Shown here: positions 28,804-42,370 of the stretch, in pieces | How the letters are laid out: each line of letters opens with the position of its first letter | Position numbering within the stretch: position 1 is the stretch's first letter | From: Lentibacter sp. XHP0401 | GTDB lineage: Bacteria > Pseudomonadota > Alphaproteobacteria > Rhodobacterales > Rhodobacteraceae | DNA: 64,000 nucleotides | Assembly (NCBI RefSeq): GCF_025751535.1 | Contig: NZ_JAOWLC010000004.1 | Location: 124,001 to 188,000, forward strand | Direction of reading: 5' to 3' | Notes under the pieces: generated by a model | Databases searched by the model: none | Seen by the model: the letters and a program-made list of their open reading frames with translations, nothing else | What the model was told of the DNA's origin: nothing | Made by a program: the position numbers and the translations under genes

Positions 28804-30009
28804 TCAGGCTTTCGGCGGAGCGCCCGTTACGGGAATGCCGTTATTGAGTTGCCATGCCATTTTCTGCAGCCGCGCGCCTGCGTGTTTGAAAAACGCAGTG
28901 TAGCTTTCACAGAAGTAGTTGTGGCCAGTTTCCCCATTGCGGGCGCTGGAAAAGCGGTGCTTCGGGCAGCCACCATTACAAGCAAAGCGAAACTCGCAAG
29001 CGCGGCACTGGGCTGTCAGGGCCGCCTGTTTATCTTGGCCGAATTCGACCTGCCTGTCGCTCCAGAGCATATCGCGCATTGGCGTTTCTTTGATATTGCC
29101 GAGCTTGTATTCGGGGTAAACGTAGTGGTCACAAGAATAGAGGCTTCCGTCATGTTCTAGGGCCAAACTATTCCCGCAGGTTTCTGCAAAAACACACAGC
29201 GATGAAGGGCGCCCTGCCCATAGCCCGAGTTGCACATCAAAGAACTGCACAGACAGTTTTCCGACATCGGTTTTAAACCAGAGGTCAAAAACATCGCAGA
29301 GAAACTTGCCGTAAACGCGGGGTGCAACACTCCAGTCTGTAACGTTAATAGCTGGGTCGCCCTCAATCTGTGGGGCACCAGCCAGCCCTGTCGCCCCAAT
29401 GCGCTCAACAATCGGGATAAACTGCATGTGATCAAATCCGAGGCCTTTCAGGAAGCGATAGATATCCTTGCCTTTGCCACCGTTGGCACGGTGAACAGTT
29501 GTCAGTGCATTGTGGGCAACGCCTTGGCGTTGGAGCACTTCAAGGCCGCGTATCACTGCGTCAAAGGTGGGGCGCCCGGCGCGGTCGACGCGGTAGCGGT
29601 CGTGAATCTGCTTTGGCCCATCAATGCTGATGCCAACAAGGAAGCGGTTGTCTGCTAGAAAATGGCCCCATTCATCATCTAGCAACATTGCGTTTGTCTG
29701 CAACGAATTGGTGACGCCTGCTCCAAAGGGGGTGTGCTTCTTTTGCAGGTCAACGATCTTGCGAAAATATGCAATACCTAGCATCGTAGGCTCTCCACCC
29801 TGCCATGCAAAGTGTATTTCTGAAACGCCAGCTTCCAGTGAGGCGTCGATAGTTTCGCGAATGTAGCGCTCCAAAACCTCGTCTGACATACGAAACTTTT
29901 TTTCGTCGGGGTAAAGTTTTTCTTTCTCAAGGTAATAGCAATACTTGCAATCAATATTGCAGCGCGGCCCGATGGGCTTTGTCATGATGTTGAAGGGGAG
30001 GGGCGTCAT
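28804..30009 (-). CDS. Radical SAM sulfatase-maturase-like protein (anSME type)
   Basis: A 401-residue radical SAM protein. The SAM cluster motif is CNIDCKYCYYLEKEKLYP near residue 17, preceded by MTKPIGP as in anSME proteins. C-terminal SPASM cysteines are in CVFAETCGN, YSCDHYVYPE, CRACEFRFACNGGCPKH and a later FCES. It should oxidise a Cys or Ser in a sulfatase to formylglycine, but no sulfatase is in the window. A longer version starting at 30078 adds 23 Pro-rich residues and has no ribosome site, while GGAG lies six bases before 30009. It lies downstream of the LysR gene on the same strand. Confidence 0.82.
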   Translation of the reverse strand: MTPLPFNIMTKPIGPRCNIDCKYCYYLEKEKLYPDEKKFRMSDEVLERYIRETIDASLEAGVSEIHFAWQGGEPTMLGIAYFRKIVDLQKKHTPFGAGVTNSLQTNAMLLDDEWGHFLADNRFLVGISIDGPKQIHDRYRVDRAGRPTFDAVIRGLEVLQRQGVAHNALTTVHRANGGKGKDIYRFLKGLGFDHMQFIPIVERIGATGLAGAPQIEGDPAINVTDWSVAPRVYGKFLCDVFDLWFKTDVGKLSVQFFDVQLGLWAGRPSSLCVFAETCGNSLALEHDGSLYSCDHYVYPEYKLGNIKETPMRDMLWSDRQVEFGQDKQAALTAQCRACEFRFACNGGCPKHRFSSARNGETGHNYFCESYTAFFKHAGARLQKMAWQLNNGIPVTGAPPKA

Positions 30010-30116
30010 TCCGGGCTCCAGTCTAGCGCCTGTTGGTTGTGGCTCAATCCCTGGTGGTTGGCAATCTACTGGCGTCATAAAGTTCGTTCTGCCAGAAATC
30101 CAATCACTCCTAGATA

Positions 30117-31076
30117 TTAGGCGTTGTAGATGCGCTCTTCCAATGGAACGGTATCAAGCTGTTCATTCAACATCTTCACCAAAGCTTGTTCTGCTTTGTT
30201 CATGCTTCGCTTGGGATTGGTGAGCACGTGGATATCAATCGCCGGCAAGGACTTGTAAGGTGGCACTTGCCAAAGCAGACCTGCTCGCACATCGCGCTCG
30301 GCGACATGGACGGGGAGGGCTCCGATGCCGATATTGGCGACAATCATACGCCTTACCTCAGGGAGGTTTGAGGAAAGGCCTTTCGGCTCCACGCGCATAC
30401 CAAGCTTTTTGCGCATATGAGCGACGCTTTCGAGCGGGCCGTTTACTTCATCTGTCTGAAAGGTGACCACCGCTTCGTTTTTAAGTTCGGAAAGTTCTAT
30501 ATTGGTTTGTCCGAATAGCCTATGAGGCGGGCCGCAGAACAAACCGAAGAACTCGCGGTAAAGAACGCGGGCCTCTAGGCCCATTGGTGCTTCGTTAAGC
30601 AGACAAACACCAAAGGTCACTCGGTTTTGCAGAAGGTACGCAATGACCTCTGTGCTGTCTATTGTCGATATGGTGTAGTGGACGCCCGGATAAAGCGCGT
30701 TAAATCGTTTTAGAACATCATCAAAATGCGGCGAAACAACATGGCTGGCGACAGCAATACTAATTTGGCCCGTCACTTCTTCTTCCAGCCCGTCCATAAG
30801 ATCGGGCAGTTGAGTCACTGCGCCGAAAATTGAGCTGGCTTCTGTATAAAGAACCTGTCCCCAAGGGGTCAGACTGAAATGTTTGGGGGAGCGGTTGACC
30901 AGTTTGCGCCCGGTAATGTCTTCTAGCCGCTTTAGGGCGGCGCTGATGGTCGGTTGTTTTAATCCTAGATAATGAGCGGCAGGCGTTATCCCGCCTTGAT
31001 CAACGACGACCATGAAGGTCCGCAATAGATTCCAATCGAGATGCCAGGGAAAACGTTGTTCATAGGGTTTTAGCAT
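30117..31076 (-). CDS. LysR family regulator
   Basis: A 319-residue LysR regulator. The N-terminal winged helix-turn-helix (DWNLLRTFMVVVDQGGITPAA and LKQPTISAALKRLED) is followed by a two-lobed effector domain. It is divergent from the amino acid ABC operon at 31217, with 140 bases between, so it most probably controls that operon. The downstream radical SAM gene starts 38-107 bases after its stop depending on which start is right, so the two may share a transcript. The effector is unknown. Confidence 0.9.
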   Translation of the reverse strand: MLKPYEQRFPWHLDWNLLRTFMVVVDQGGITPAAHYLGLKQPTISAALKRLEDITGRKLVNRSPKHFSLTPWGQVLYTEASSIFGAVTQLPDLMDGLEEEVTGQISIAVASHVVSPHFDDVLKRFNALYPGVHYTISTIDSTEVIAYLLQNRVTFGVCLLNEAPMGLEARVLYREFFGLFCGPPHRLFGQTNIELSELKNEAVVTFQTDEVNGPLESVAHMRKKLGMRVEPKGLSSNLPEVRRMIVANIGIGALPVHVAERDVRAGLLWQVPPYKSLPAIDIHVLTNPKRSMNKAEQALVKMLNEQLDTVPLEERIYNA

Positions 31077-31216
31077 TATTTCAGTCTATTTTTGGAATTT
31101 ATAATATCTATTTGCCCTATGAGCGATTGCAGCGCAACCTCTTCATCAGAGTGCATCTGGATAGCGACTCAGCTTGAGCAGCCTGCAGTAGGCACGAATA
31201 AAGACAGGGAAATAAA

Positions 31217-32011
31217 ATGAAAAACTCGAAGAACTTTTTGCGTCGCAGCGTTTTGATGGGGGCCGTTGCGATGATCGGTCTGAACTTTTCACCTTTGGCA
31301 GCAAATGCAGACGAGCTTGCGGAGATCAAAGAACGCGGCGTATTGCGTATCGCAATGACGGGTCAATATCCGCCGTTCAACTTCGTTAACGAGAGCAATG
31401 AGGTTGTCGGATTCGATCCGGCCATTGGAACCGAAATTGCTAAACGGATGGGCTTGGAAACAGAGATCATCACGACGGCATGGGACGGTATTATTGGTGG
31501 CCTGATTGCGAATAAATATGATGCTGTTGTTGGCTCGATGTCGATCACCGAAGAGCGTGACAAAGTCATCGATTTCGTTGGTCCCTATTACAACACCAAG
31601 CGCGCCTTCTTTACTGTCGCGGGTTCAGAGATCACCACGCTTGAGCAACTTGACGACGAGAGCGTCAGAGTGGGTCTTACCCTGGGCGAGACACACGACC
31701 AGTGGGCGCGTGATCAGGGATACAATGTAAAAACCTACAAAGGTTTGCCCGAGCTGCTGCTTGAACTGACCAATGGCCGCGTGGATGTTATTGTGAATGA
31801 TTCAATTCCCGTTCTGCTGGCAATGAAGGCGGGCCAGTATGATCTGGCCGAAATTCCTGCACCGGATGCAGAGGCCTTTCCTGCCGGAATCGCCATTCGC
31901 GAGAACAACCCTGAGCTGGCTGCAGCAATGCAAAAAGCACTGGATGATATGATGGAAGACGGTACGTATATGGAGTTTGCCAACGAGTGGGTTGGTGGCG
32001 ACATCCGTTAA
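31217..32011 (+). CDS. Amino acid ABC transporter, substrate-binding protein
   Basis: A 264-residue periplasmic binding protein (family 3). It has a signal peptide of about 31 residues ending in PLAANADEL. The typical GVLRIAMTGQYPPFNF block and the ITEERDKVIDFVGPYY block are seen, the latter with the Arg that normally holds an alpha-carboxylate. So the ligand is expected to be an amino-acid-like compound. It heads the operon with two permeases, an ATPase, a class III aminotransferase, a BKACE and a GNAT. The gene is not close enough to any known binding protein for me to name the ligand. Confidence 0.9.
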   Translation: MKNSKNFLRRSVLMGAVAMIGLNFSPLAANADELAEIKERGVLRIAMTGQYPPFNFVNESNEVVGFDPAIGTEIAKRMGLETEIITTAWDGIIGGLIANKYDAVVGSMSITEERDKVIDFVGPYYNTKRAFFTVAGSEITTLEQLDDESVRVGLTLGETHDQWARDQGYNVKTYKGLPELLLELTNGRVDVIVNDSIPVLLAMKAGQYDLAEIPAPDAEAFPAGIAIRENNPELAAAMQKALDDMMEDGTYMEFANEWVGGDIR

Positions 32012-32100
32012 TTCAGTTTTGTGGCCTGCTGGTTGTTCTGGCAGGCCATGACCGGCCCCATCAGGCGCGTCATACGACGTGATACATTCGGAGTTTCCCC

Positions 32101-32748
32101 TTGGATATTGAACTTATCCTGCGTGTCTATCCGTTCTTTTTGCAGGCAGCTCTTGTCACGGTTCAACTTTCGGTCCTGACCTGCATCTTAGGCCTGATAT
32201 GCGGTGCAATAGGCGCGTTTATGCGCTTGTCTCGACTAGTGCCGTTGCGCTGGTTCGGGGCAGTATATGTCAGCTTGTTCCGCGGCACTCCCGCTTTGAT
32301 TCAGGTTTTCATCCTGTATTTCGGCGGTCCGCAGGTCGGGATCAACCTTGATGCATTCACCGCTGGCACTATCGCTTTGGGCGTCAATATAGGTGCCTAT
32401 ATGACCGAGACAATTCGCGGCGCTATCTTGTCTGTCGATAAAGGTCAGACGGAAGCCGCACGTACCCTTGGGATGAGCAAAGGGGAAACAATGCGCAAAG
32501 TCGTGCTTCCACAGGCCGCACGCATGATGATCCGCCCGCTAGGGGTGAACATCAACGCGCTGATCAAAGGAACGGCCCTGCTTGCGCCGATCTCGGTGAT
32601 TGAACTCACACAAACCGCACAGCGTTTTATTGGCTCGACATACAAGCCATTCGAGATGTTTTTGCTGGCTGGTATTCTCTATATGTTGTTCATCTATGCG
32701 GTCGGTCTCGGCATCAACTGGCTTGATCGGAAGGCACGGATATCATGA
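32101..32748 (+). CDS. Amino acid ABC transporter, permease 1
   Basis: A 215-residue permease of the His/Glu/Gln/Arg/opine type with about five membrane segments. The EAA loop is EAARTLGMSKGETMRKVVLPQAARMM. It starts at a TTG, since the first in-frame codon after GGAG (7-base gap) is TTG and there is no upstream ATG. It would pair with permease 2 to form the membrane channel. Confidence 0.88.
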   Translation: MDIELILRVYPFFLQAALVTVQLSVLTCILGLICGAIGAFMRLSRLVPLRWFGAVYVSLFRGTPALIQVFILYFGGPQVGINLDAFTAGTIALGVNIGAYMTETIRGAILSVDKGQTEAARTLGMSKGETMRKVVLPQAARMMIRPLGVNINALIKGTALLAPISVIELTQTAQRFIGSTYKPFEMFLLAGILYMLFIYAVGLGINWLDRKARIS

Positions 32749-32787
32749 GCTTCTGTTCCCCCATATTTGCGTTGACAGGAGGCTACC

Positions 32788-33444
32788 TTGGGTCTTGATT
32801 TCACGGTTGTCCCCGATTATTTCGGCATGCTTTTGCTGGGCATGGGTTGGACCGTCGCCATTACTATCAGCGCTGGTTTATTGAGTTTTTTCGGCGGCAT
32901 CCTTTTTGCTGTCATTGCCCTCTACGGACACTGGGCTCTGCGTTTGCCGTTTCGGGCATTTGCGTTTCTCTTTATGGGCACACCGCTTCTGTTGCAGTTG
33001 TTTCTCATCTATTTCGGGTTGATCCAGATTGGTATCGACCTGCCTGCATTTGTGGCGGGTGTGATAGGGCTGGGGCTGCATTTTGCAGTGTATAATTCCG
33101 AGCTCATTCAGGCCTCTATACTCGCTGTCGATAAGGGCCAGTATGAAGGTGCACGCACGCTTGGGCTCTCGCGAGGTCAAACGCTACGGCGCATCGTTAT
33201 TCCCCAAGCTGTGCGTGCGGTGATTCCGCCAATGGGGAATAACATGATCGCGCTTCTGAAAGACTCCGCACTGGTTTCGGTAATCGGTGTGGCCGAGTTG
33301 ACGCTGGCGGCGCAACAAGCCATCAGCCGAACGTATCGTCCCTTCGAGTTCTATCTCGCGGCTGCCTTTTGCTATTACATTATCAACCTCGCGCTAGAGG
33401 CGGGACTGCGCCGACTGGAACGCCGCATCGCTGCATCGCGTTGA
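32788..33444 (+). CDS. Amino acid ABC transporter, permease 2
   Basis: A 218-residue permease. The EAA loop is [29 protein letters not shown], near residue 118. It starts at a TTG, five bases after AGGAGG, so both permease genes of this operon use TTG. Heterodimer with permease 1 is expected. Confidence 0.88.
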
Positions 33445-33460
33445 GACTGGGAGAAACCAC

Positions 33461-34222
33461 ATGACAGATCAAGCCTTCGTCACAATCAAGAACGCGGCCA
33501 AAAGCTTTGGCGCACTTCAAGTCCTTAAGGATATCAATCTGACAGTCGAGCGTGGTCAGATTGTTGCGATCATTGGTCCGTCAGGCTCGGGAAAATCGAC
33601 ACTTCTGCGGGCGATAAACGAACTCGATCCTCTGACTTCAGGGGAAGTCTGGCTTGAAGGTGTGCAAGTTAACAAAACACTTCCGCATCGCCAGTATGAA
33701 GCGCACGTTAATCAGGTACGCCAAGATATTGGCATGGTGTTTCAGCATTTCAATTTGTTTCCACACCTCACTGTGCGCGGCAACATCACACTTGCGCCGC
33801 GAATGCTTAAAGGGTTGTCAGAAGACGAAGCCAACAAGCTTGCCGAGGAACAACTGGCCAAGGTTGGACTAGCCGAGAAGATCGACGAATACCCATCACG
33901 CCTCTCCGGTGGACAGAAGCAACGCGTGGCTATTGCGCGGGCTTTGGCGATGAAACCCAAAGTGATGCTTTTCGATGAAGCAACATCTGCTCTTGATCCT
34001 GAACTTGTCGAGGAGGTCAATTTGGTCATGAAGCAATTGGCCGAAGAGCACATGACAATGATTATTGTTACACACGAAATGGATTTTGCGGCCTCTGTTT
34101 GTGATCGAGTTTTGTTTATGGATCAGGGTGTTGTCGTTGAAGAGGGGCCGCCCTCGGTCATTTTTGAAAACCCTCAAGAAGAACGCACACGCAATTTCTT
34201 GCGCAAACACCTCAGCCGCTGA
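33461..34222 (+). CDS. Amino acid ABC transporter, ATPase
   Basis: A 253-residue ABC ATPase of the GlnQ/HisP type. Walker [10 protein letters not shown], the signature [17 protein letters not shown], Walker [16 protein letters not shown] and the His switch VTHEM are all present. It energises the two permeases just before it. The aminotransferase starts ten bases after its stop. Confidence 0.94.
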
Positions 34223-34232
34223 AGGCACCACC

Positions 34233-35570
34233 ATGAGCAATTTGTTCTATCAAACCAAGTCTCTCCGCCCGATGCTTGAGCGTGCAGAAGGCATCTATAT
34301 GTGGGGCAAAGACGGCAAGCGCTACATCGACGGTTCTTCGGGCGCGATGGTCAGCAATATCGGGCACTCCAATCCGGAGGTGCTAGCCGCCATGCGCGCG
34401 CAGATGGACAGTTCGACATTCGGCTACCGTTTGCACTTTCAGACCGAGTCATCTGAAAAGCTTGCAGCGATGACGGCTGCGCTTGCACCTGAAGGGCTAA
34501 ACAAGGTTTTCTTCGTTTCAGGCGGCTCCGAGGCTGTCGAAAGTGCTTTGAAAATGGCACGGCAATACGTGCTCACACAAGGCCAAGCCCAGCGTTACAA
34601 GGTAATTTCACGCTATCCAAGCTATCATGGCTGTACCCTCGGGGCGCTCGCGGTCACGGGCTATGCTCCTATGACGGCCCCGTTCGATCCGATGATGCAA
34701 AGGATGCCCAAAATCCCGGCGCCCCGCGCCTATCTTGACGGACTTGACCCCGAGCTTGAAGCCACAGGCCATTACTATGCCGATATGCTGGAAGCCAAAA
34801 TCCTGCAAGAAGGCCCCGACACTGTGCTCGCCTTTATTGTCGAGCCGGTCGGTGGAGCGTCGACCGGTGCACTTGTGCCGCCCAAAGGCTATATGCAACG
34901 CATCCGCGAAATTTGCACACGCTACGGAGTCTTGCTCATCCATGATGAGGTCATGACAGGAGGGGGTCGCACAGGCCGCTTCTTCGGGGCCGAACATTGG
35001 GGCGTTACCCCCGATCTTATTAGCCTCTCCAAAGGGTTTGGCGGAGGTTACGTGCCATTGGGGGCAATGGTTGCGCGTGATGATATTGTCGAGGCAGTGA
35101 TGAACGCGGGAGGCTTTATTCATGGGTTTACCTACGCAGGAAATCCGCTCGCCTGCGCTGCTGGCTGTGCTGTGCTTGAACAGATCGAAGAGCATGATCT
35201 CACAGGCAATGCAGAGCACATGGGCGATAAACTGGCCGAGCGCCTGCGCAGCCTCATGCAGCGCTATCCGCTTGTTGGCGATGTGCGCGGCAAAGGCCTT
35301 CTGACAGCCTTTGAGCTGATGACAGACCGCACCAGCAAAGAGCCGCTGCCAGCCGACTTACACGCCCACGCAAGGCTTGTTGATATCGCTTATGACAACG
35401 GCCTCATCATCTACTCGCGTCGCACGCGCGGCGGCACGTCAGGGGATCACTTCCTTGTCTGCCCACCTATGATTGTGACCGAGGCTCAGCTGGACGAAAT
35501 GACCGACATTTTGGATGCCTCACTAGCGCAGTATATGGCTGAAATTCCTCAATTTTCTGGCGCAACTTAA
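34233..35570 (+). CDS. Class III aminotransferase
   Basis: A 445-residue PLP aminotransferase, omega-amino acid type. Seen: the SGGSEAVESALKMARQY block, YPSYHGCTLGALAVTG, LIHDEVMTGGGRTGRFFG, and the PLP lysine in ISLSKGFGGGYVPLGA. It is ATG-started at 34233, ten bases after the ATPase stop. Class III enzymes can act on amines away from the carboxylate, including beta-amino acids, taurine, GABA and diamines. Followed directly by a BKACE, it would give a beta-keto acid if the substrate is a beta-amino acid. Substrate otherwise unknown. Confidence 0.87.
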   Translation: MSNLFYQTKSLRPMLERAEGIYMWGKDGKRYIDGSSGAMVSNIGHSNPEVLAAMRAQMDSSTFGYRLHFQTESSEKLAAMTAALAPEGLNKVFFVSGGSEAVESALKMARQYVLTQGQAQRYKVISRYPSYHGCTLGALAVTGYAPMTAPFDPMMQRMPKIPAPRAYLDGLDPELEATGHYYADMLEAKILQEGPDTVLAFIVEPVGGASTGALVPPKGYMQRIREICTRYGVLLIHDEVMTGGGRTGRFFGAEHWGVTPDLISLSKGFGGGYVPLGAMVARDDIVEAVMNAGGFIHGFTYAGNPLACAAGCAVLEQIEEHDLTGNAEHMGDKLAERLRSLMQRYPLVGDVRGKGLLTAFELMTDRTSKEPLPADLHAHARLVDIAYDNGLIIYSRRTRGGTSGDHFLVCPPMIVTEAQLDEMTDILDASLAQYMAEIPQFSGAT

Positions 35571-35579
35571 GGATATCTT

Positions 35580-36506
35580 ATGTCAAAGATCATTATCACC
35601 TGTGCCATTACAGGGTCAATCCATACACCCTCCATGTCGCCGCATCTGCCAATCACAGCCGAGCAAATCACCGAGCACTCTATAGGTGCTGCCGAGGCGG
35701 GCGCCGCTATTTTGCATCTGCATGCCCGCGATCCTGGCGATGGCCGCCCTTCGGCAGAGCCGGCGCATTTCATGGCCTTCCTTCCTCAGATAAAGCAGCG
35801 CTCTAATGCTGTGCTCAACATTTCGACAGGTGGCAGCGCCACGATGACGCTGGACGCCAGATTGGCCGCGCCAAAGCTTGCCGAGCCCGAAATGTGCTCG
35901 CTCAACATGGGAACAATGAACTTTGCGCTCTATCCAGCGGCCGAGCGGATCACCGAATGGAAGTATGATTGGGAAAAGCCTTTTCTCGAAAACTCTGACG
36001 ATCTGGTGTTCAAGAATACGCCTCGTGATATGGCATATGTTTTGCACGAAATGGGCGACAAACGCGGCGCGCGGTTCGAGTTTGAGTGCTATGATGTGAG
36101 TCACCTCTATATGCTGCGCCATTTTGTAGACCGCGGCTTGGTGCAGGGGCCACTGTTTATACAGTTTGTCTTCGGTGTGCTCGGCGGGATAGGGCCAGAC
36201 CCCGAAAACCTTACCCACATGAAACTCATTGCCGACAAGCTATTTGGTGATGATTATGCTTTTTCGGTGTTGGCCGCAGGCCGTCATCAGATCCCGCTTA
36301 TTACCATGTCAGCCATTCTCGGAGGGCATGTCCGTGTCGGCTTGGAAGATAGCCTGATGATCTCGCGCGGAGTGCTTGCCAAAAGCAATGCAGAACAAGT
36401 CTTGAAAATCCGTCGCATTGTCGAAGAACTGGGCCGCACTGTCGCCACCGCCGATGAAGCCCGCGAAATACTCGATCTCAAGGGTGGCGACCGGACAGGA
36501 ATTTGA
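35580..36506 (+). CDS. Beta-keto acid cleavage enzyme (BKACE, DUF849)
   Basis: A 308-residue BKACE family protein. The N-terminal Zn/substrate block TCAITGSIHTPSMSPHLPIT and LHLHARDP with the metal-binding His pair are clear, followed by NISTGG and a C-terminal GHVRVGLEDSL block. Known members condense a beta-keto acid with acetyl-CoA to give acetoacetate and a new acyl-CoA; the founding case is 3-keto-5-aminohexanoate in lysine fermentation. It follows the aminotransferase by nine bases, and this pairing suggests that the aminotransferase product is its substrate. Confidence 0.88.
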   Translation: MSKIIITCAITGSIHTPSMSPHLPITAEQITEHSIGAAEAGAAILHLHARDPGDGRPSAEPAHFMAFLPQIKQRSNAVLNISTGGSATMTLDARLAAPKLAEPEMCSLNMGTMNFALYPAAERITEWKYDWEKPFLENSDDLVFKNTPRDMAYVLHEMGDKRGARFEFECYDVSHLYMLRHFVDRGLVQGPLFIQFVFGVLGGIGPDPENLTHMKLIADKLFGDDYAFSVLAAGRHQIPLITMSAILGGHVRVGLEDSLMISRGVLAKSNAEQVLKIRRIVEELGRTVATADEAREILDLKGGDRTGI

Positions 36507-36509
36507 GCC

Positions 36510-36992
36510 ATGTCTGACATAAAAATTGCGCGCGTCACGCTCAAAGAAATAACGCTTCTTCACCAAGCCCTGCGCGCGCTTGCCGTTGATCTTGGTGATG
36601 ATTTTCTAACCGACGAAGACACTCTTTGCGAAGCGGTTTGCGGGGCCAATGCTCCCTGTATTGCGCTGCTGGCTCATGCGGGTGGTGAGCCCTTGGGTAT
36701 AGCTCTGGCTTCAAGAGTGTTCTCTACCGTGCGTGGTGGGGCAGGGCTCTATGTCAGTGATCTTTGGGTTGCAAAGGCCCAACGCGGCAAGGGGCTTGCA
36801 CGCAGGTTGCTGGCCCTCACAGCGCAAGAGGGAGTGAGCCTTAACGCAGGCCATTTTCTCAAGCTCACAGTCTATCATGATAACCCTCAGGCTTTGGCCG
36901 CCTACGACCAGCTCGGCTTCATTCGGCAAGTCGATGAGACAAACATGATCCTGACAGGCACAGGTCTGGCGGCTCTGAAAGAAACCTCGTGA
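36510..36992 (+). CDS. GNAT family acetyltransferase
   Basis: A 160-residue GNAT protein with the acetyl-CoA binding motif AQRGKGLARRLL near residue 90 and the typical C-terminal NPQALAAYDQLGF block. It begins three bases after the BKACE stop, so it is the last gene of the operon. It could N-acetylate a toxic or unstable amine intermediate, or modify the imported amino acid. That is inference from context. Confidence 0.85.
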   Translation: MSDIKIARVTLKEITLLHQALRALAVDLGDDFLTDEDTLCEAVCGANAPCIALLAHAGGEPLGIALASRVFSTVRGGAGLYVSDLWVAKAQRGKGLARRLLALTAQEGVSLNAGHFLKLTVYHDNPQALAAYDQLGFIRQVDETNMILTGTGLAALKETS

Positions 36993-37229: not shown

Positions 37230-37898
37230 CTAGGGTGCGCAGCCCTGTAAAAATATTGAAATGGCAAGTTCACGACGTCGCTCTATTTCTGCTTGGTTCT
37301 GTGGTTGAGAGCAGGGATGTAGAAGGCGTGTCAAGGGACTCTCGAATGCCATATCGAGTAGCATTTCTACCGCCATATTTAGGTCATGCCGGGCTAAAAA
37401 AATTTCACCACTCCCGACGGCTCGTAAAACCTCTGCGCGAACAAAATCAGCCAATGCTCCACGGCTTGTTGCGTATAGTTTTTGTGCTAAATCAGGATAA
37501 CTTTTCGCCTTTGCAATAATGGACCTAAGAAATTCGAGATTGTTCGGCCCACTGCCCGTCGGAGTGTTATAACGTAGTAAAAGTGACAATCTTTCCTTCA
37601 GCGGCCGGCGCAAGTCTTCGAGGCTTAGGGGAAGAAAGATGGTGCTTGAAAGGTTGATAATTGCACGTGTGAGTAAATCTTCGCGGTTCTTAAAATGTTC
37701 ATATACTGTTCGCTTAGACATGCCTGCTTTGCCAGCAATCACCGCCATGGTCACTTCATCAAATGGTCTTTCCAAAAGCAGTTGCGCTGTGGTTCTTAAA
37801 ATAGCGGCCTCTCGGGCCGCCAATTTCATTTGTAGCGGACGACCGCGCCGCACTTTCCCGCAGCAGGAGCTTTTCGTGTCAGTAAGTTTGTCGCTCAT
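37230..37898 (-). CDS. TetR family regulator
   Basis: A 222-residue TetR repressor. The helix-turn-helix is VTMAVIAGKAGMSKRTVYEHF near residues 50-70; the rest is an all-helical ligand domain. The N-terminal SSCCGKVRRGRP is basic with two Cys. I start at the ATG 37898; a TTG 39 bases upstream is less likely. It is divergent from the RND pump genes and is probably their repressor. The 237 bases between it and the GNAT gene hold no gene I can support. Confidence 0.88.
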   Translation of the reverse strand: MSDKLTDTKSSCCGKVRRGRPLQMKLAAREAAILRTTAQLLLERPFDEVTMAVIAGKAGMSKRTVYEHFKNREDLLTRAIINLSSTIFLPLSLEDLRRPLKERLSLLLRYNTPTGSGPNNLEFLRSIIAKAKSYPDLAQKLYATSRGALADFVRAEVLRAVGSGEIFLARHDLNMAVEMLLDMAFESPLTRLLHPCSQPQNQAEIERRRELAISIFLQGCAP

Positions 37899-38013
37899 CT
37901 TAGAGCTGCTCCCAGAAAGTGGTGTAACATTAGCCAAAGGAAATAATCTTTACAAAACTATCTGGTTTCCTTAATCGTATCGCAAGGGTGTTTTTTCATT
38001 TCCTGATAGGGTA

Positions 38014-38027
38014 GTAACCAGTGTTAC
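38014..38027. promoter_or_regulatory. Candidate TetR operator before the RND pump
   Basis: GTAAC-CAGT-GTTAC, an inverted repeat in the 188 bases between the divergent TetR and adaptor genes. GTGTAACATT at 37922-37931 carries a related half-site. The placement suits autoregulation and control of the pump. Confidence 0.4.
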
Positions 38028-38086
38028 ATTCATCGTGATTCACGGTATTTATCCCCATGATCTCTTAATTTATGGAGCTCTTCTCA

Positions 38087-39241
38087 ATGCCCCAATTGTT
38101 TACCGCTCCACTTGGTCGGTTTTCCGCCACGCTGTTTCTTGCGTTAAGCTTGCCCTTGAGCGCGTTTGCTCAGGAAGGCCGCCCTCCTGTACCGGTTACT
38201 GTTGTTACGCTTGAAGCTCACGACGTTACTCTAACAGCCCCACTTCCCGGCCGTGTTGCAGCCTCGTCTGAAGCACAAGTCCGCCCGCAGGTGAATGGCA
38301 TTATCCGCGAACGGCTCTACGTTGAGGGGCGTCCGGTTGCGAAGGGTGATCTTCTCTATCGTATTGATGCCGCATCATATGAAGCCCAGAAAACGTCTGC
38401 AGAAGCATTGCTTGCACAGGCGAATGCCTCACTCAGATCGGCTCAACGAGAACTCGATCGTCAGCAAGAACTGAAGTCTCGAAACGTTGTCTCACAGCAA
38501 AACCTGGACAATGCTATTTCGGCACGTGAAATATCGAGTGCCAGTGTGAAAGTTGCAGAAGCTCAATTGCTTGCAACTGAAATTGACCTAGAACGCACCG
38601 CTGTTCGTGCGCCTATCGCAGGGGTGGTTGGATTGAGCGAAGTCAGCGTTGGGGCGCTTGTGACCTCCGGCCAAGCGACCCCTTTGACGATTATCCGCGC
38701 GCTTGATCCTGTTCATGTCGATGTGACACAAGCCGCCGCTGATATTCTGCGTTGGCGCCGCGCCGACGGTGGGGCTGAGTTTGCTGAAGAGCTCGGCCAA
38801 GTGGTTCAATTAAAACTTGCTGATGGTACGATATATGAACACCAAGGCGAGCTTTCTGCCGCTGAGCCACATGTAAACGAAGGCACTGGGACAATTTTGC
38901 TTAGGCTGTCCTTTCCCAATCCTGAGGGGTTTCTTTTGCCTGGGATGTATGTGCAGGTTGATATGCCTCAAGGCGTCGTGAAAGATGCGATCTTGGTGCC
39001 GCAGCAAGCTGTAACACGTGATCGTCGGGGTGAGCCCACGGCGCTCGTTGTCAACGAGGAAAACGTCGTTGAGCAACGCAAGCTAACGGTTCTGCGTGAC
39101 CACGGCGAGGATTGGGTTGTAACCGCAGGTGTATCTGCTGGTGATCGTATCATTGTTGCTGGGCTTCAAAAAACTGCCGCTGGCGCTACAGTGGCTCCGC
39201 AAGAGCAGGAAGCTGAAGAGCCTTCTGCTGAAAACAACTAA
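38087..39241 (+). CDS. RND efflux periplasmic adaptor
   Basis: A 384-residue MexA/AcrA-type adaptor. Signal peptide ends near LPLSAFAQEG, with no lipobox Cys, so it is not a lipoprotein. Seen: the LPGRVAASSEAQVRPQVNG lipoyl half, the coiled-coil hairpin (about 95-165) and the AVTRDRRGEPTALVV region of the beta-barrel. The ATG at 38087 follows GGAG by nine bases; an upstream ATG at 38072 lacks one. It joins the RND permease, 21 bases downstream, to an outer membrane channel that is not encoded here. Confidence 0.92.
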   Translation: MPQLFTAPLGRFSATLFLALSLPLSAFAQEGRPPVPVTVVTLEAHDVTLTAPLPGRVAASSEAQVRPQVNGIIRERLYVEGRPVAKGDLLYRIDAASYEAQKTSAEALLAQANASLRSAQRELDRQQELKSRNVVSQQNLDNAISAREISSASVKVAEAQLLATEIDLERTAVRAPIAGVVGLSEVSVGALVTSGQATPLTIIRALDPVHVDVTQAAADILRWRRADGGAEFAEELGQVVQLKLADGTIYEHQGELSAAEPHVNEGTGTILLRLSFPNPEGFLLPGMYVQVDMPQGVVKDAILVPQQAVTRDRRGEPTALVVNEENVVEQRKLTVLRDHGEDWVVTAGVSAGDRIIVAGLQKTAAGATVAPQEQEAEEPSAENN

Positions 39242-39262
39242 ACTCAAATTTGAGAGCACCCC

Positions 39263-42200
39263 ATGGCCCGTTTTTTCATTGACCGCCCTATTTTTGCATG
39301 GGTGATTTCAATTCTGATTATGGGCTTGGGTCTGTTGTCTATCTACACGTTGCCTGTGGCGCAGTATCCTCAGATTGCTCCACCCTCGGTGACGATCAAC
39401 GCGACATATCCTGGTGCATCAGCTGATACTGTTGCCAATACAGTGACCCAAATTATCGAGCAGCGGATGACGGGGCTAGATGGGATGCGTTATGTTTCCT
39501 CATCATCAACGTCATCTGGTTCAGCTTCGATCACGCTTACGTTCGAGACAGGCACTGATCCGGACATTGCTCAAGTTCAGGTGCAAAACAAACTGGCCCA
39601 GGCAACCGCGCTATTGCCCGAAGCCGTGCAACGTCAGGGTGTGACAGTGCAAAAGTCGTCTGCCGGCTTCCTCATGGTGATCGGACTGATATCGGAAGAC
39701 GGAAGCATGGATCAGGCCGATTTGTCTGACTATCTAAACTCCAACCTCGTTGATGCGTTTAGCCGGATAGAAGGCGTGGGCGGCACTCAGGTTTTCGGGG
39801 CGAAATATGCAATGCGTATCTGGCTTGACCCGTCCAAGCTGGCAGCTTTCGATATGGCACCCTCGGATGTAGTTGCATCTGTCTCATCTCATAATGCCCA
39901 GATTTCCGCAGGGTCTTTTGGTGCTCTTCCTGCTGTCGAGGGCCAGGCATTTACAGCGACCATCACTGCACAATCCCTTTTGGAAACGCCCGAAGATTTT
40001 CGGAACATTATCCTGCGCTCCGAAGCCGATGGCGGGCTTGTCCTGCTTGAAGACGTCGCCCGCGTAGAGATCGGGGCGGAAAACTATATGGCGATCGCTA
40101 AGTATAACGGCAAGCCCGCATCGGGGATGGCCGTCCAGTTGGCACCGGGAGCCAATGCGCTGGATACATCAGCACTCGTTCGCGAGAAAATCGAGGAATA
40201 TTCAGGATTTTTCCCCGAGGGTATGACTTACGTTATCCCGTATGACACGACCCCTTTTGTTGAGGTTTCAATTCATGAAGTGCAAAAAACACTGATCGAA
40301 GCGATTATTCTTGTGTTCTTTGTGATGCTTTTGTTCCTACAGAATTTTCGCGCAACTCTGATCCCGACGCTGGCTGTTCCCGTTGTCATACTTGGCACAT
40401 TCGCGATCCTTGGAGTGTTTGGTTATACCATCAACGTGTTGACGATGCTTGCTCTTGTGCTTGCCATCGGGTTGCTTGTGGATGATGCCATCGTTGTAGT
40501 GGAAAACGTCGAACGGATCATGGAAGAAGAGGGGCTGTCCCCTCGCGAGGCGACACGTAAATCCATGGACCAGATCACCGGCGCATTGGTTGGGATTGGC
40601 CTTGTGATTTCGGCTGTGTTTATTCCAATGGCCTTCTTCGGCGGCTCTACAGGGGTGATCTATCGTCAGTTCTCCGTGACTATCGTTTCCGCGATGGGGC
40701 TTTCAGTTCTGGTTGCACTGACGCTGACGCCAGCGCTGTGCGCCACATTGCTGAAAAGCAAAGATGCCCACCACACCAAGCGCGGCTTTTTTGGGCTATT
40801 CAACCGTGCATTTAGCAAACTTGCTGGTGGGTATGGATGGACAGTGAATTTTGTAATTCGCCGCCCTCTGCGGATGTTGCTGGTCTATGGCGCGATGGGT
40901 GCTGGCATTACTTGGCTTTTCTTGCAAACACCGACAGGTTTCTTGCCCGACGAGGATCAGGGAATTATGCTTGCGCTGGTTCAAGGGCCGTCAGGGACAA
41001 CCGCCGAAAACACACAGAAAGCCACACAACAAATTCAGGATCACTTCCTTAACAACGAAAGTGAAAACGTCGATTCAGTGTTTAGCGTTGTTGGGTTCTC
41101 CTTTGCAGGGGCGGGCCAGAATAATGGCTTGGCTTTCATACGGCTCAAGGATTGGGATGAACGTCCAAGCCCTGAACAGTCTGTTCAGGCCATAGCTGGC
41201 CGCGCATTCCCTGCGATGATGGGTATTCAGGAGGCAATGGCGTTTCCTATCGTGCCGCCTGCCGTCACTGAGCTTGGCAATGTTTCCGGCTTTGATTTCT
41301 ACCTGCAAGCGCAGGGAGGCCAGTCGCACGAGCAGATACTGGAAGCACGGAACACGGTGTTGGGGATGGCAGCACAAAGCCCGCTCATTGCCTCTGCGCG
41401 CCCTTCGGGCCTTGAAGATGCAACCCAGTTCAAGCTGGATATTGATTGGCGTGCCGCTGGTGCAATGGGGGTATCACCCGCAAATGTGGGGAACACATTG
41501 GCGATTGCGATGGCCGGAACCTATGTGAACGACTTTAATGACAATGGCCGCACCAAGCGCGTTTATGTGCAAGGCGAAGCCAGCGCACGTGCAACACCGT
41601 CTGATCTTCAGAGATGGCGTGTGCGCAACACAGCAGGCGAGTTGGTTCCCTTTTCCAACTTTTCTAGTGAACGCTGGGTTTATGGCCCTCAGGGGTTGAA
41701 CCGTTACAACGGTACACCCGCGATGCAGATACAAGGTTCTCCAGCTCCGGATGTATCTACTGGCGAGGCCATGCTGGAGATTGAAAGCTTTGTTGACCAA
41801 CTGCCTGGCTTCTCCGTGGCATGGACGGGGCTCTCGCTTGAAGAGCGAGAATCAGGGTCTCAGGCGCCGATGCTGTATGCATTGTCACTTGCGGCGATTT
41901 TCTTCTGCCTTGCAGCTCTCTACGAGAGTTGGGCAATTCCGCTTTCAGTGATGCTGGCCATGCCTGTAGGGATTTTGGGCACGCTCTTTACAGCATGGAA
42001 CTTTGGATTTCAGAATGGAGTATTTTTTCAGGTAGGTCTTCTGACGGTCATCGGGCTTACTGGTAAAAACGCCATTCTGATTGTCGAGTTTGCTCGTGAA
42101 CAGGTAGATAGTGGTAAAGAGCTTTACGAGTCTGTTTTGACAGCAGCCCGATTGCGGTTCCGTCCTATTATTATGACCTCGCTTGCTTTCTCACTTGGAG

Positions 42201-42370
42201 TTGTCCCGCTTGTTCTGTCATCGGGTGCGGGTTCAGGTGGGCGCCGTTCGGTCGGGGCTGCTGTGCTCGGAGGAACAATAACAGGAACGATACTTGGGAT
42301 CATCTTTGTGCCGCTCTTTTTCATCTTGGTGCGCAAGACTTTAAGTCGCCAGAAGGCGAAGACTGCTTAA
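39263..42370 (+). CDS. RND multidrug efflux permease (HAE1 family)
   Basis: A 1035-residue AcrB/MexB-like proton-driven pump with 12 expected membrane segments and two large periplasmic loops. Seen: the N-terminal MARFFIDRPIFAWVISI, the loop with YPQIAPPSVTINATYPGASADTV, and the membrane-4 GLLVDDAIVVVENVERIMEE with the proton-relay Asp pair. A C-terminal GLTGKNAILIVEFA block in TM10 is normal. Probable substrates include antibiotics, detergents and dyes. No TolC/OprM-type gene follows. Confidence 0.95.
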   Translation: MARFFIDRPIFAWVISILIMGLGLLSIYTLPVAQYPQIAPPSVTINATYPGASADTVANTVTQIIEQRMTGLDGMRYVSSSSTSSGSASITLTFETGTDPDIAQVQVQNKLAQATALLPEAVQRQGVTVQKSSAGFLMVIGLISEDGSMDQADLSDYLNSNLVDAFSRIEGVGGTQVFGAKYAMRIWLDPSKLAAFDMAPSDVVASVSSHNAQISAGSFGALPAVEGQAFTATITAQSLLETPEDFRNIILRSEADGGLVLLEDVARVEIGAENYMAIAKYNGKPASGMAVQLAPGANALDTSALVREKIEEYSGFFPEGMTYVIPYDTTPFVEVSIHEVQKTLIEAIILVFFVMLLFLQNFRATLIPTLAVPVVILGTFAILGVFGYTINVLTMLALVLAIGLLVDDAIVVVENVERIMEEEGLSPREATRKSMDQITGALVGIGLVISAVFIPMAFFGGSTGVIYRQFSVTIVSAMGLSVLVALTLTPALCATLLKSKDAHHTKRGFFGLFNRAFSKLAGGYGWTVNFVIRRPLRMLLVYGAMGAGITWLFLQTPTGFLPDEDQGIMLALVQGPSGTTAENTQKATQQIQDHFLNNESENVDSVFSVVGFSFAGAGQNNGLAFIRLKDWDERPSPEQSVQAIAGRAFPAMMGIQEAMAFPIVPPAVTELGNVSGFDFYLQAQGGQSHEQILEARNTVLGMAAQSPLIASARPSGLEDATQFKLDIDWRAAGAMGVSPANVGNTLAIAMAGTYVNDFNDNGRTKRVYVQGEASARATPSDLQRWRVRNTAGELVPFSNFSSERWVYGPQGLNRYNGTPAMQIQGSPAPDVSTGEAMLEIESFVDQLPGFSVAWTGLSLEERESGSQAPMLYALSLAAIFFCLAALYESWAIPLSVMLAMPVGILGTLFTAWNFGFQNGVFFQVGLLTVIGLTGKNAILIVEFAREQVDSGKELYESVLTAARLRFRPIIMTSLAFSLGVVPLVLSSGAGSGGRRSVGAAVLGGTITGTILGIIFVPLFFILVRKTLSRQKAKTA

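Follow-up and report, generated by a model that had tools for sequence, protein, structure and literature searches.

Related systems and the operon of Lentibacter

The aerobic degradation of beta-lysine (3,6-diaminohexanoate) in Pseudomonas was reportedly elucidated by the Barker laboratory (1970s to 1981), at the level of enzymology only. The route is said to start with an N6-acetyltransferase and a transaminase that generates 3-keto-6-acetamidohexanoate, and to continue with a cleavage that uses acetyl-CoA and releases acetoacetate and 4-acetamidobutyryl-CoA, followed by a deacetylase/thiolesterase and a 4-aminobutyrate transaminase. The same parts list is proposed for an operon of the marine-type bacterium Lentibacter sp. 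XHP0401, which lies in a stretch of 64,000 nt (contig NZ_JAOWLC010000004.1, positions 124,001 to 188,000). This whole stretch is called the window, and all coordinates refer to it. The operon consists of a divergent gene for a LysR-type regulator and of genes for a PAAT-type ABC transporter, a class III aminotransferase, a BKACE, and a GNAT protein. In contrast to the Pseudomonas route, the operon includes an importer, and the deacetylase would be unlinked in the genome. Judged from its sequence, the operon probably mediates the uptake and aerobic degradation of beta-lysine via N6-acetyl-beta-lysine. The more general assignment, that it serves to take up and degrade an N-acetylated beta-amino acid, is well supported, with beta-lysine as the most likely substrate.

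A second related system is the kam locus of Bacillus, with the genes kamA, ablB/yodP, yodQ (ArgE-type), yodR/S (CoA-transferase), and yodT (aminotransferase). It resembles the Lentibacter system in having a related aminotransferase (39% identity between the window protein and that of a Bacillus kamA/ablB cluster), an acetyltransferase, an N-deacetylase, and a 3-oxoacid-processing enzyme. It differs in that the lysine 2,3-aminomutase KamA generates beta-lysine from lysine, and in that a CoA-transferase is present instead of BKACE, AblB instead of the short GNAT protein, and a sigma-54 activator instead of LysR. In B. thuringiensis, kamA and six upstream genes have been described as operating in L-lysine metabolism under the control of KamR and sigma-54 (PMC4428206). 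Clustering of ablA with ablB has also been reported (PMC2821294). An account of B. subtilis describes YodT as a putative aminotransferase of unknown process and the physiological function of KamA as still undetermined (PMC6522883). The beta-lysine acetyltransferase of B. cereus has been interpreted as a possible protection against a platelet compound (PMC6962202); the linkage of ablB and kamA suggests lysine catabolism rather than such a protection.

All eight genes of the operon were confirmed, and Pfam and NCBIfam agreed with the gene names given in a preliminary description that had been made from the sequence. The spacers from the gene of the binding protein to that of the GNAT protein have lengths of 89, 39, 16, 10, 9, and 3 bases, in this order. 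The tight packing reported earlier was thus confirmed, with 16, 10, 9, and 3 bases behind the second permease gene replacing the range of 3 to 17.

In the proposed route, the ABC importer would bring in beta-lysine as its predicted ligand. The GNAT protein (36510..36992, plus strand; PF00583, 47 bits), a proposed beta-lysine N6-acetyltransferase outside of the AblB family, would acetylate the N6 amine at the end of the chain and so keep it from cyclising with the keto group. The class III aminotransferase (34233..35570, plus strand; PF00202, 349 bits with the frame read from 34230), a proposed N6-acetyl-beta-lysine transaminase, would then form 3-oxo-6-acetamidohexanoate. We chose the ATG at position 34233 as its start codon instead of the TTG with which the longest open reading frame begins further upstream. 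With acetyl-CoA, the BKACE (35580..36506, plus strand; PF05853; NF053538) would convert this proposed substrate to acetoacetate and 4-acetamidobutyryl-CoA, from which a thioesterase and an N-deacetylase, presumably encoded elsewhere in the genome, would release 4-aminobutyrate. Candidates for the acetyltransferase, the transaminase, and the acetyl-CoA-dependent cleavage enzyme of aerobic beta-lysine degradation are together in one operon; which compound is the actual substrate, what the individual enzymes do, and what the transporter binds are predictions. The preliminary description had assigned no role to the GNAT protein and had known of no named pathway with this gene set, but the parts match both the Barker-laboratory route and the Bacillus kamA/ablB cluster. 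It had also regarded the operon as a complete uptake and opening step, which was not supported, because the acetyl group that the GNAT protein would add has to be removed later and the operon lacks the deacetylase that most relatives have. A literature search found nothing that assigned these BKACE and aminotransferase genes to beta-lysine.

BKACE and CoA-transferase replace each other downstream of the aminotransferase

Genome contigs were scanned with the aminotransferase, and the best 80 of 116 related stretches were kept. Among them were 42 loci with 62–89% aminotransferase identity, which are of Rhodobacterales type going by the record names. Thirteen further orthologues with 61–80% identity were obtained from 60 genomes (the own genome included), yielding 55 loci, and the two sets may overlap in species. 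Examination of Rhodobacterales for the same cluster had been proposed in the preliminary description, and the cluster was indeed found: tblastn detected a BKACE after the aminotransferase in 36 of the 42 loci and a GNAT protein in 24, with some loci cut by contig ends. In addition, 31 of 398 genomes of the phylum (again including the own genome) matched the aminotransferase at E 1e-110 or better, some of them from other families of the class. A BKACE was found beside the aminotransferase in 14 of 20 loci fetched from these 31, with best identities of 63–86%, and the block was recovered in other families of the class at 52–73% aminotransferase identity. Given this recurrence, the gene order is not due to chance.

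The genes beside the aminotransferase gene were called, clustered, and named by Pfam and NCBIfam. In 45 of the 55 loci, the sequence extends for 5.5 kb or more behind the aminotransferase gene, and the following counts refer to these. The genes, their order, their linkage, and the exchange of modules described here are direct readings of the sequences. Thirty-four loci had only a BKACE, eight had only the A and B subunits of a 3-oxoacid CoA-transferase, none had both, and three had neither. One of the latter, L067, does have a BKACE according to tblastn, so that L063 and L130 remain. The deacetylases were distributed in the same manner. A deacetylase of the PF00850 family was present in 31 of 34 BKACE loci (absent from L041, L045, and L074) and in none of the eight CoA-transferase loci, and an ArgE/DapE-type deacylase was present in all eight CoA-transferase loci and in none of the 34 BKACE loci. 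For the PF00850 protein of L034, the best solved relatives were acetylpolyamine amidohydrolases. A thiolase accompanied the CoA-transferase in two loci (L066 and L123). Looser pairings were observed elsewhere, namely BKACE with ArgE (L246), BKACE with both deacetylases (L248 and L249), a GNAT protein and PF00850 without BKACE and without CoA-transferase (L256 and L257), and, in another class of the phylum, an aminotransferase with CoA-transferase, thiolase, and PF00850 deacetylase (L259).

In a tree of 127 aminotransferase sequences (L105 and L109 were omitted because of a stop character within the matched stretch), the CoA-transferase loci occupied two distinct positions of the core clade, judged by branching order alone and not by the support of the nodes between them. 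The exchange of BKACE and CoA-transferase thus probably occurred more than once. Since the two enzymes exclude each other and, together with the thiolase, have 3-oxo acids as their common kind of substrate, the product of the aminotransferase is very probably a 3-oxo (beta-keto) acid. The earlier idea that a beta-amino acid is converted to a beta-keto acid and passed on to the BKACE was thereby well supported, also by the thiolase genes of L066 and L123. The usual linkage of an N-deacetylase indicates that an acyl group, probably acetyl, is removed, and GNAT protein and deacetylase together imply that it is probably first added and later taken off. Of the two substrates suggested before, the beta-lysine type is the better guess. 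Beta-glutamate is unlikely, as acetylation and deacetylation imply a second amine.

Two groups of more distant loci served as controls. In 15 loci with paralogous aminotransferases (43–48% identity), some of them short, no GNAT protein, no deacetylase of either type, and no CoA-transferase was detected at E 1e-8. Among 38 more distant loci (L076–L113), both deacetylase types were found in L090 and a weak CoA-transferase match in L110. Eleven Firmicute-type aminotransferases of this range (L086, L091, L093, L094, L095, L099, L100, L102, L105, L108, and L109; 29–33%) were rejected, as no other genes of the module adjoin them, apart from a weak binding-protein match in L102.

Two side observations concern related gene arrangements. 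In L202, L206, L209, and L214, paralogous class III aminotransferases (43–46% best identity) adjoin a distant BKACE (24–29%), and these are possibly further pairs for other beta-amino acids. In L068 (11356–13369), two 4HBT thioesterases and an iron-type alcohol dehydrogenase are encoded behind the aminotransferase, BKACE, and deacetylase genes, and like genes are present in L070; the L068 thioesterases are candidates for the thioesterase step.

The probable link to beta-lysine in Bacillus relatives

KamA was searched in 16 genomes, 10 of which were over the cut-off. Eight neighborhoods (L148–L155) and a second KamA locus (L160) were examined, with G100 and G101 left out. In L148, from a Firmicute-type genome, the genes for the aminotransferase, CoA-transferase A and B, ArgE, AblB, a sigma-54 activator, and KamA follow each other in a row, and both KamA (TIGR03820, 640.1 versus a cut-off of 525.4) and AblB (TIGR03827, 304.3 versus 205.1) exceed their family cut-offs. 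Within this set, the module was restricted to L148 and a BKACE to L151, and the rest had neither. The family of the L148 genome, that of Bacillus marasmi, was then analyzed. Thirty-two of 41 genomes, including the reference, contain an aminotransferase with at least 63% identity, and 20 loci were inspected, 19 from these genomes and L197 (43%); L148 is outside this set. CoA-transferase A and B were present in all 20 loci, ArgE in 19, KamA in 17, and AblB in 17. The two clusters that were scanned (L184 and L195) add a second aminotransferase, a 4-aminobutyrate transaminase (603.6 and 603.4 versus a cut-off of 506.65) and an aldehyde dehydrogenase. The Bacillus cluster fits a path from lysine via beta-lysine, N6-acetyl-beta-lysine, 3-oxo-6-acetamidohexanoate, and 4-aminobutyrate to succinate, a path that the reports on the Bacillus genes cited above do not set out.

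In the Lentibacter genome, no match to KamA was found. Lysine as an internal source of beta-lysine was hence rejected, and the substrate should come from outside. Overall, KamA was present in 4 of 50 genomes searched; all four have the aminotransferase cluster, yet this cluster occurs in 39 of the 50 (27 via the aminotransferase loci and 12 with an orthologue from the 60-genome search). Four alphaproteobacterial KamA neighborhoods (L156–L159) contained no module genes, except for weak oxidase matches in L156.

Properties of the three enzymes

The best NCBIfam match of the aminotransferase was PRK07483, with a score just under the cut-off (468.9 versus 485). The BKACE clearly belongs to its family (PF05853, 354 bits versus a cut-off of 24.8 bits) and contains the His pair, the Glu base, and the Arg. 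His46, His48, Glu169, Tyr171, Arg252, and Glu256 are retained in all 54 aligned orthologues. At position 14, all 54 have either Ile or Val, with Ile in the window protein. The BKACE encoded beside KamA in L151 has Glu14, and Phe at the place of the conserved Tyr. In Kce, the BKACE of lysine fermentation, Glu14 presumably holds the free amine, and the difference between Ile14 of the window and Glu14 of L151 fits an uncharged substrate tail. Kce shares the BKACE family chemistry but acts on a substrate with a free amine. Assignment of the window protein as Kce was rejected, because its score for NF052387 was too low (239.7 versus 382), Ile is present instead of Glu at position 14, and KamA had no match in the genome. 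In their survey of BKACE enzymes, Bastard et al. (2014) reportedly tested an acetamido-oxohexanoate.

A near relative is BKACE15 of Paracoccus denitrificans (374 bits; PDB 8RIO, 8RIP, and 9HNF). Its Glu171, Tyr173, and Arg254 match Glu169, Tyr171, and Arg252 of the window protein, but its genomic context, as described, is different (PMC11961710). Glu171 is the proposed base in that report, and Tyr173 is discussed in another (PMC12871164). For BKACE enzymes of group G1, the substrates listed are hydrophobic or polar without a charge (PMC4922564), and our guess from the nearest solved relatives is that the window protein belongs to this group.

For the GNAT protein, the best solved relatives were 12jc (44.6 bits), a thialysine acetyltransferase, and 2fe7 (44.4 bits). 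Thialysine is an analogue of lysine. Assignment as AblB was rejected, as there was no match to TIGR03827 at E 0.001. In L126, a GNAT gene is located behind the LysR gene instead, and its product is 38% identical to the L034 GNAT protein.

Transporter, regulator, and neighboring genes

The transporter has all parts of the PAAT type, i.e., an SBP_bac_3 binding protein, permeases with HEQRo domains, and an ABC ATPase. The family-3 solute-binding protein (31217..32011, plus strand; PF00497, 129 bits) was over no NCBIfam cut-off. Arg114 and Asp195 are invariant in all 32 aligned orthologues, and are, as in the family in general, the putative ligands of the carboxylate and the amine, respectively. 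Both permeases belong to PF00528, start with TTG, and exceed the TIGR01726 cut-off of 42.2 bits (permease 1, 32101..32748, plus strand, 103 bits; permease 2, 32788..33444, plus strand, 69.2 bits). The ATPase (33461..34222, plus strand; PF00005) is GlnQ/EhuA-like, with scores under the respective cut-offs. In 41 loci with 5.5 kb on either side, a PAAT binding protein was found in 22, a polyamine-type one in 13, both in none, and neither in six. The polyamine-type parts were under the equivalog cut-offs (PotB 201.6 versus 348, PotF 50.8 versus 636).

Additional partner genes were observed in relatives. In many of them, a creatininase-family amidohydrolase is encoded between the binding protein and the first permease (e.g., L034, 5072–5863, the one that was scanned), and this gene is missing from the window. 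In L059, L063, L064, L069, and L126–L129, a pair of an M20 amidohydrolase and an alanine-racemase-like protein is located behind the operon (the L059 pair was scanned), and none of these loci has a GNAT gene downstream of the aminotransferase gene. A dimethylformamidase-like gene (PF20254) directly precedes the aminotransferase gene in L253 (6331–7971), and an open reading frame of similar size and place is present in L250, L251, and L254–L258. Such partners point to different initial substrates in some members of the family.

The LysR-type regulator (30117..31076, minus strand) contains the Pfam domains HTH_1 and LysR_substrate, and a LysR match was found upstream of the aminotransferase in 39 of the same 41 loci. 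In the gap between the LysR and binding-protein genes, an alignment of the intergenic regions revealed a conserved element, TCTATTTT...ATATCTATTTGCCCTATG (31085..31121, no strand assigned). Besides the window, 16 of the 42 loci entered this alignment, namely those with a called-gene gap of 90–220 bases, and the element is a possible LysR operator or promoter. Beside the LysR gene, an anaerobic sulfatase maturase is encoded (28804–30078, minus strand; TIGR03942, 485.9 versus a cut-off of 349.45); no sulfatase was found among the ten window genes scanned. Directly downstream of the operon (37230–42370), there are genes for a TetR-type regulator and, as judged by eye, RND-type efflux proteins, which appear to be separate from it.

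Evaluation of the proposed substrate and of alternatives

Several results weigh against the proposal that the operon degrades beta-lysine. As KamA is missing here and is present in only 4 of the 50 genomes, the link to beta-lysine is borrowed from the Bacillus relatives, and the placement of the Bacillus aminotransferases is unstable: in one tree, the 43–48% paralogues are nearer to the window clade, in another, the Bacillus proteins are. Downstream of the aminotransferase, the GNAT gene is present in 21 of 34 BKACE loci and 3 of 8 CoA-transferase loci, and absent from 13 and 5, respectively. The window operon lacks the deacetylase, while its nearest relatives in the aminotransferase tree (L075, L034, L043, and others) have one. 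The gene is also absent from L040, L041, L045, and L074, which form a separate cluster of the tree, and the candidates in the window genome are two unlinked PF00850 proteins that are 36–46% identical to the linked type. For 4-aminobutyrate transaminase (TIGR00700), no protein of this genome was over the cut-off, and 12 matches, including the window aminotransferase, were below it. The L151 protein is a presumed Kce, and its Phe in place of the Tyr makes this role itself uncertain. The BKACE of the window exceeds the cut-off of NF053538 (508.8 versus 430), a model named 3,5-dioxohexanoate:acetyl-CoA acetone transferase, and the creatininase, M20/racemase, and dimethylformamidase-like partners in relatives remain unaccounted for. 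Lastly, the counts are raw and come from mutually related loci.

Some of these points lead to other substrates. The sequence does not fix the chain length, and the amidohydrolase-type partners suggest an amide-type start in some species, so that the same logic could apply to another N-acylated diamino beta-acid, such as 3,5-diaminopentanoate or 3,5-diaminohexanoate, or to its amide or lactam; moreover, the substrates confirmed for BKACE15 are, according to PMC11961710, C5–C6 keto acids besides malonate semialdehyde. We consider this unlikely, because KamA and AblB accompany the aminotransferase in 17 of 20 Bacillus-family loci and exceed their family cut-offs in L148, and because the 4-aminobutyrate transaminase of the two scanned clusters fits a C4 amino acid as product. 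The match to NF053538 could also mean that the BKACE uses 3,5-dioxohexanoate or another neutral beta-keto acid of this kind, which the aminotransferase would supply from an amino precursor, and BKACE15 has confirmed activity with 3,5-dioxohexanoate, beta-ketohexanoate, and others (PMC11961710). However, the same report describes the physiological role of BKACE15 as unknown and proposes a context of aromatic degradation, and GNAT protein and deacetylase would be left without explanation, which makes this reading very improbable. Even slightly less credit is given to an ordinary uptake operon for an alpha-amino acid or a polyamine, with aminotransferase and BKACE acting on unrelated products. 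The transporter does match general PAAT models, and the other kind of transporter, present in 13 of 41 loci, is spermidine/putrescine-like, albeit under the equivalog cut-offs; the tight gaps, the linkage of aminotransferase and BKACE in several alphaproteobacterial families, and the replacement by a CoA-transferase would be hard to account for.

Possible recycling of archaeal osmolytes

Returning to beta-lysine as the most likely substrate, the uneven occurrence of the GNAT gene allows a further suggestion. The deacetylase is mostly retained in the loci, while the GNAT gene is often absent. Twenty-seven genomes were searched with the L034 GNAT protein. Of the 18 genomes whose locus has no GNAT gene, 12 had no match at E 1e-6 and six had matches with at most 39% identity. 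As the L126 protein itself is only 38% identical to the query, such weak matches could be the missing acetyltransferase. Species without the GNAT gene possibly use a weakly matching or non-homologous acetyltransferase; otherwise, they would import a substrate that is already acetylated. N6-acetyl-beta-lysine is described as a compatible solute, i.e., a salt protectant, of methanogens. It is conceivable, though we regard it as somewhat doubtful, that the operon family scavenges this archaeal osmolyte. Species without the GNAT gene would import N6-acetyl-beta-lysine, those with it, such as Lentibacter, would also use free beta-lysine, and Rhodobacterales and other Alphaproteobacteria would recycle archaeal osmolytes.

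The chemistry of the route was reportedly worked out long ago, but its genes seem hardly to have been assigned. If the proposal is true, candidate genes would become available for a route otherwise described from enzymology, and a role would be proposed for a group of BKACE enzymes, for class III aminotransferases named only "aspartate aminotransferase family", and for the YodT family of Bacillus. Several modular versions of the route would then occur, with BKACE or CoA-transferase and thiolase, with amidohydrolase or ArgE, and with a PAAT or polyamine-type importer. Alphaproteobacteria would be predicted to consume beta-lysine or its acetylated osmolyte form, and the exchange of BKACE for CoA-transferase would offer two enzymatic versions in which this prediction can be tested.

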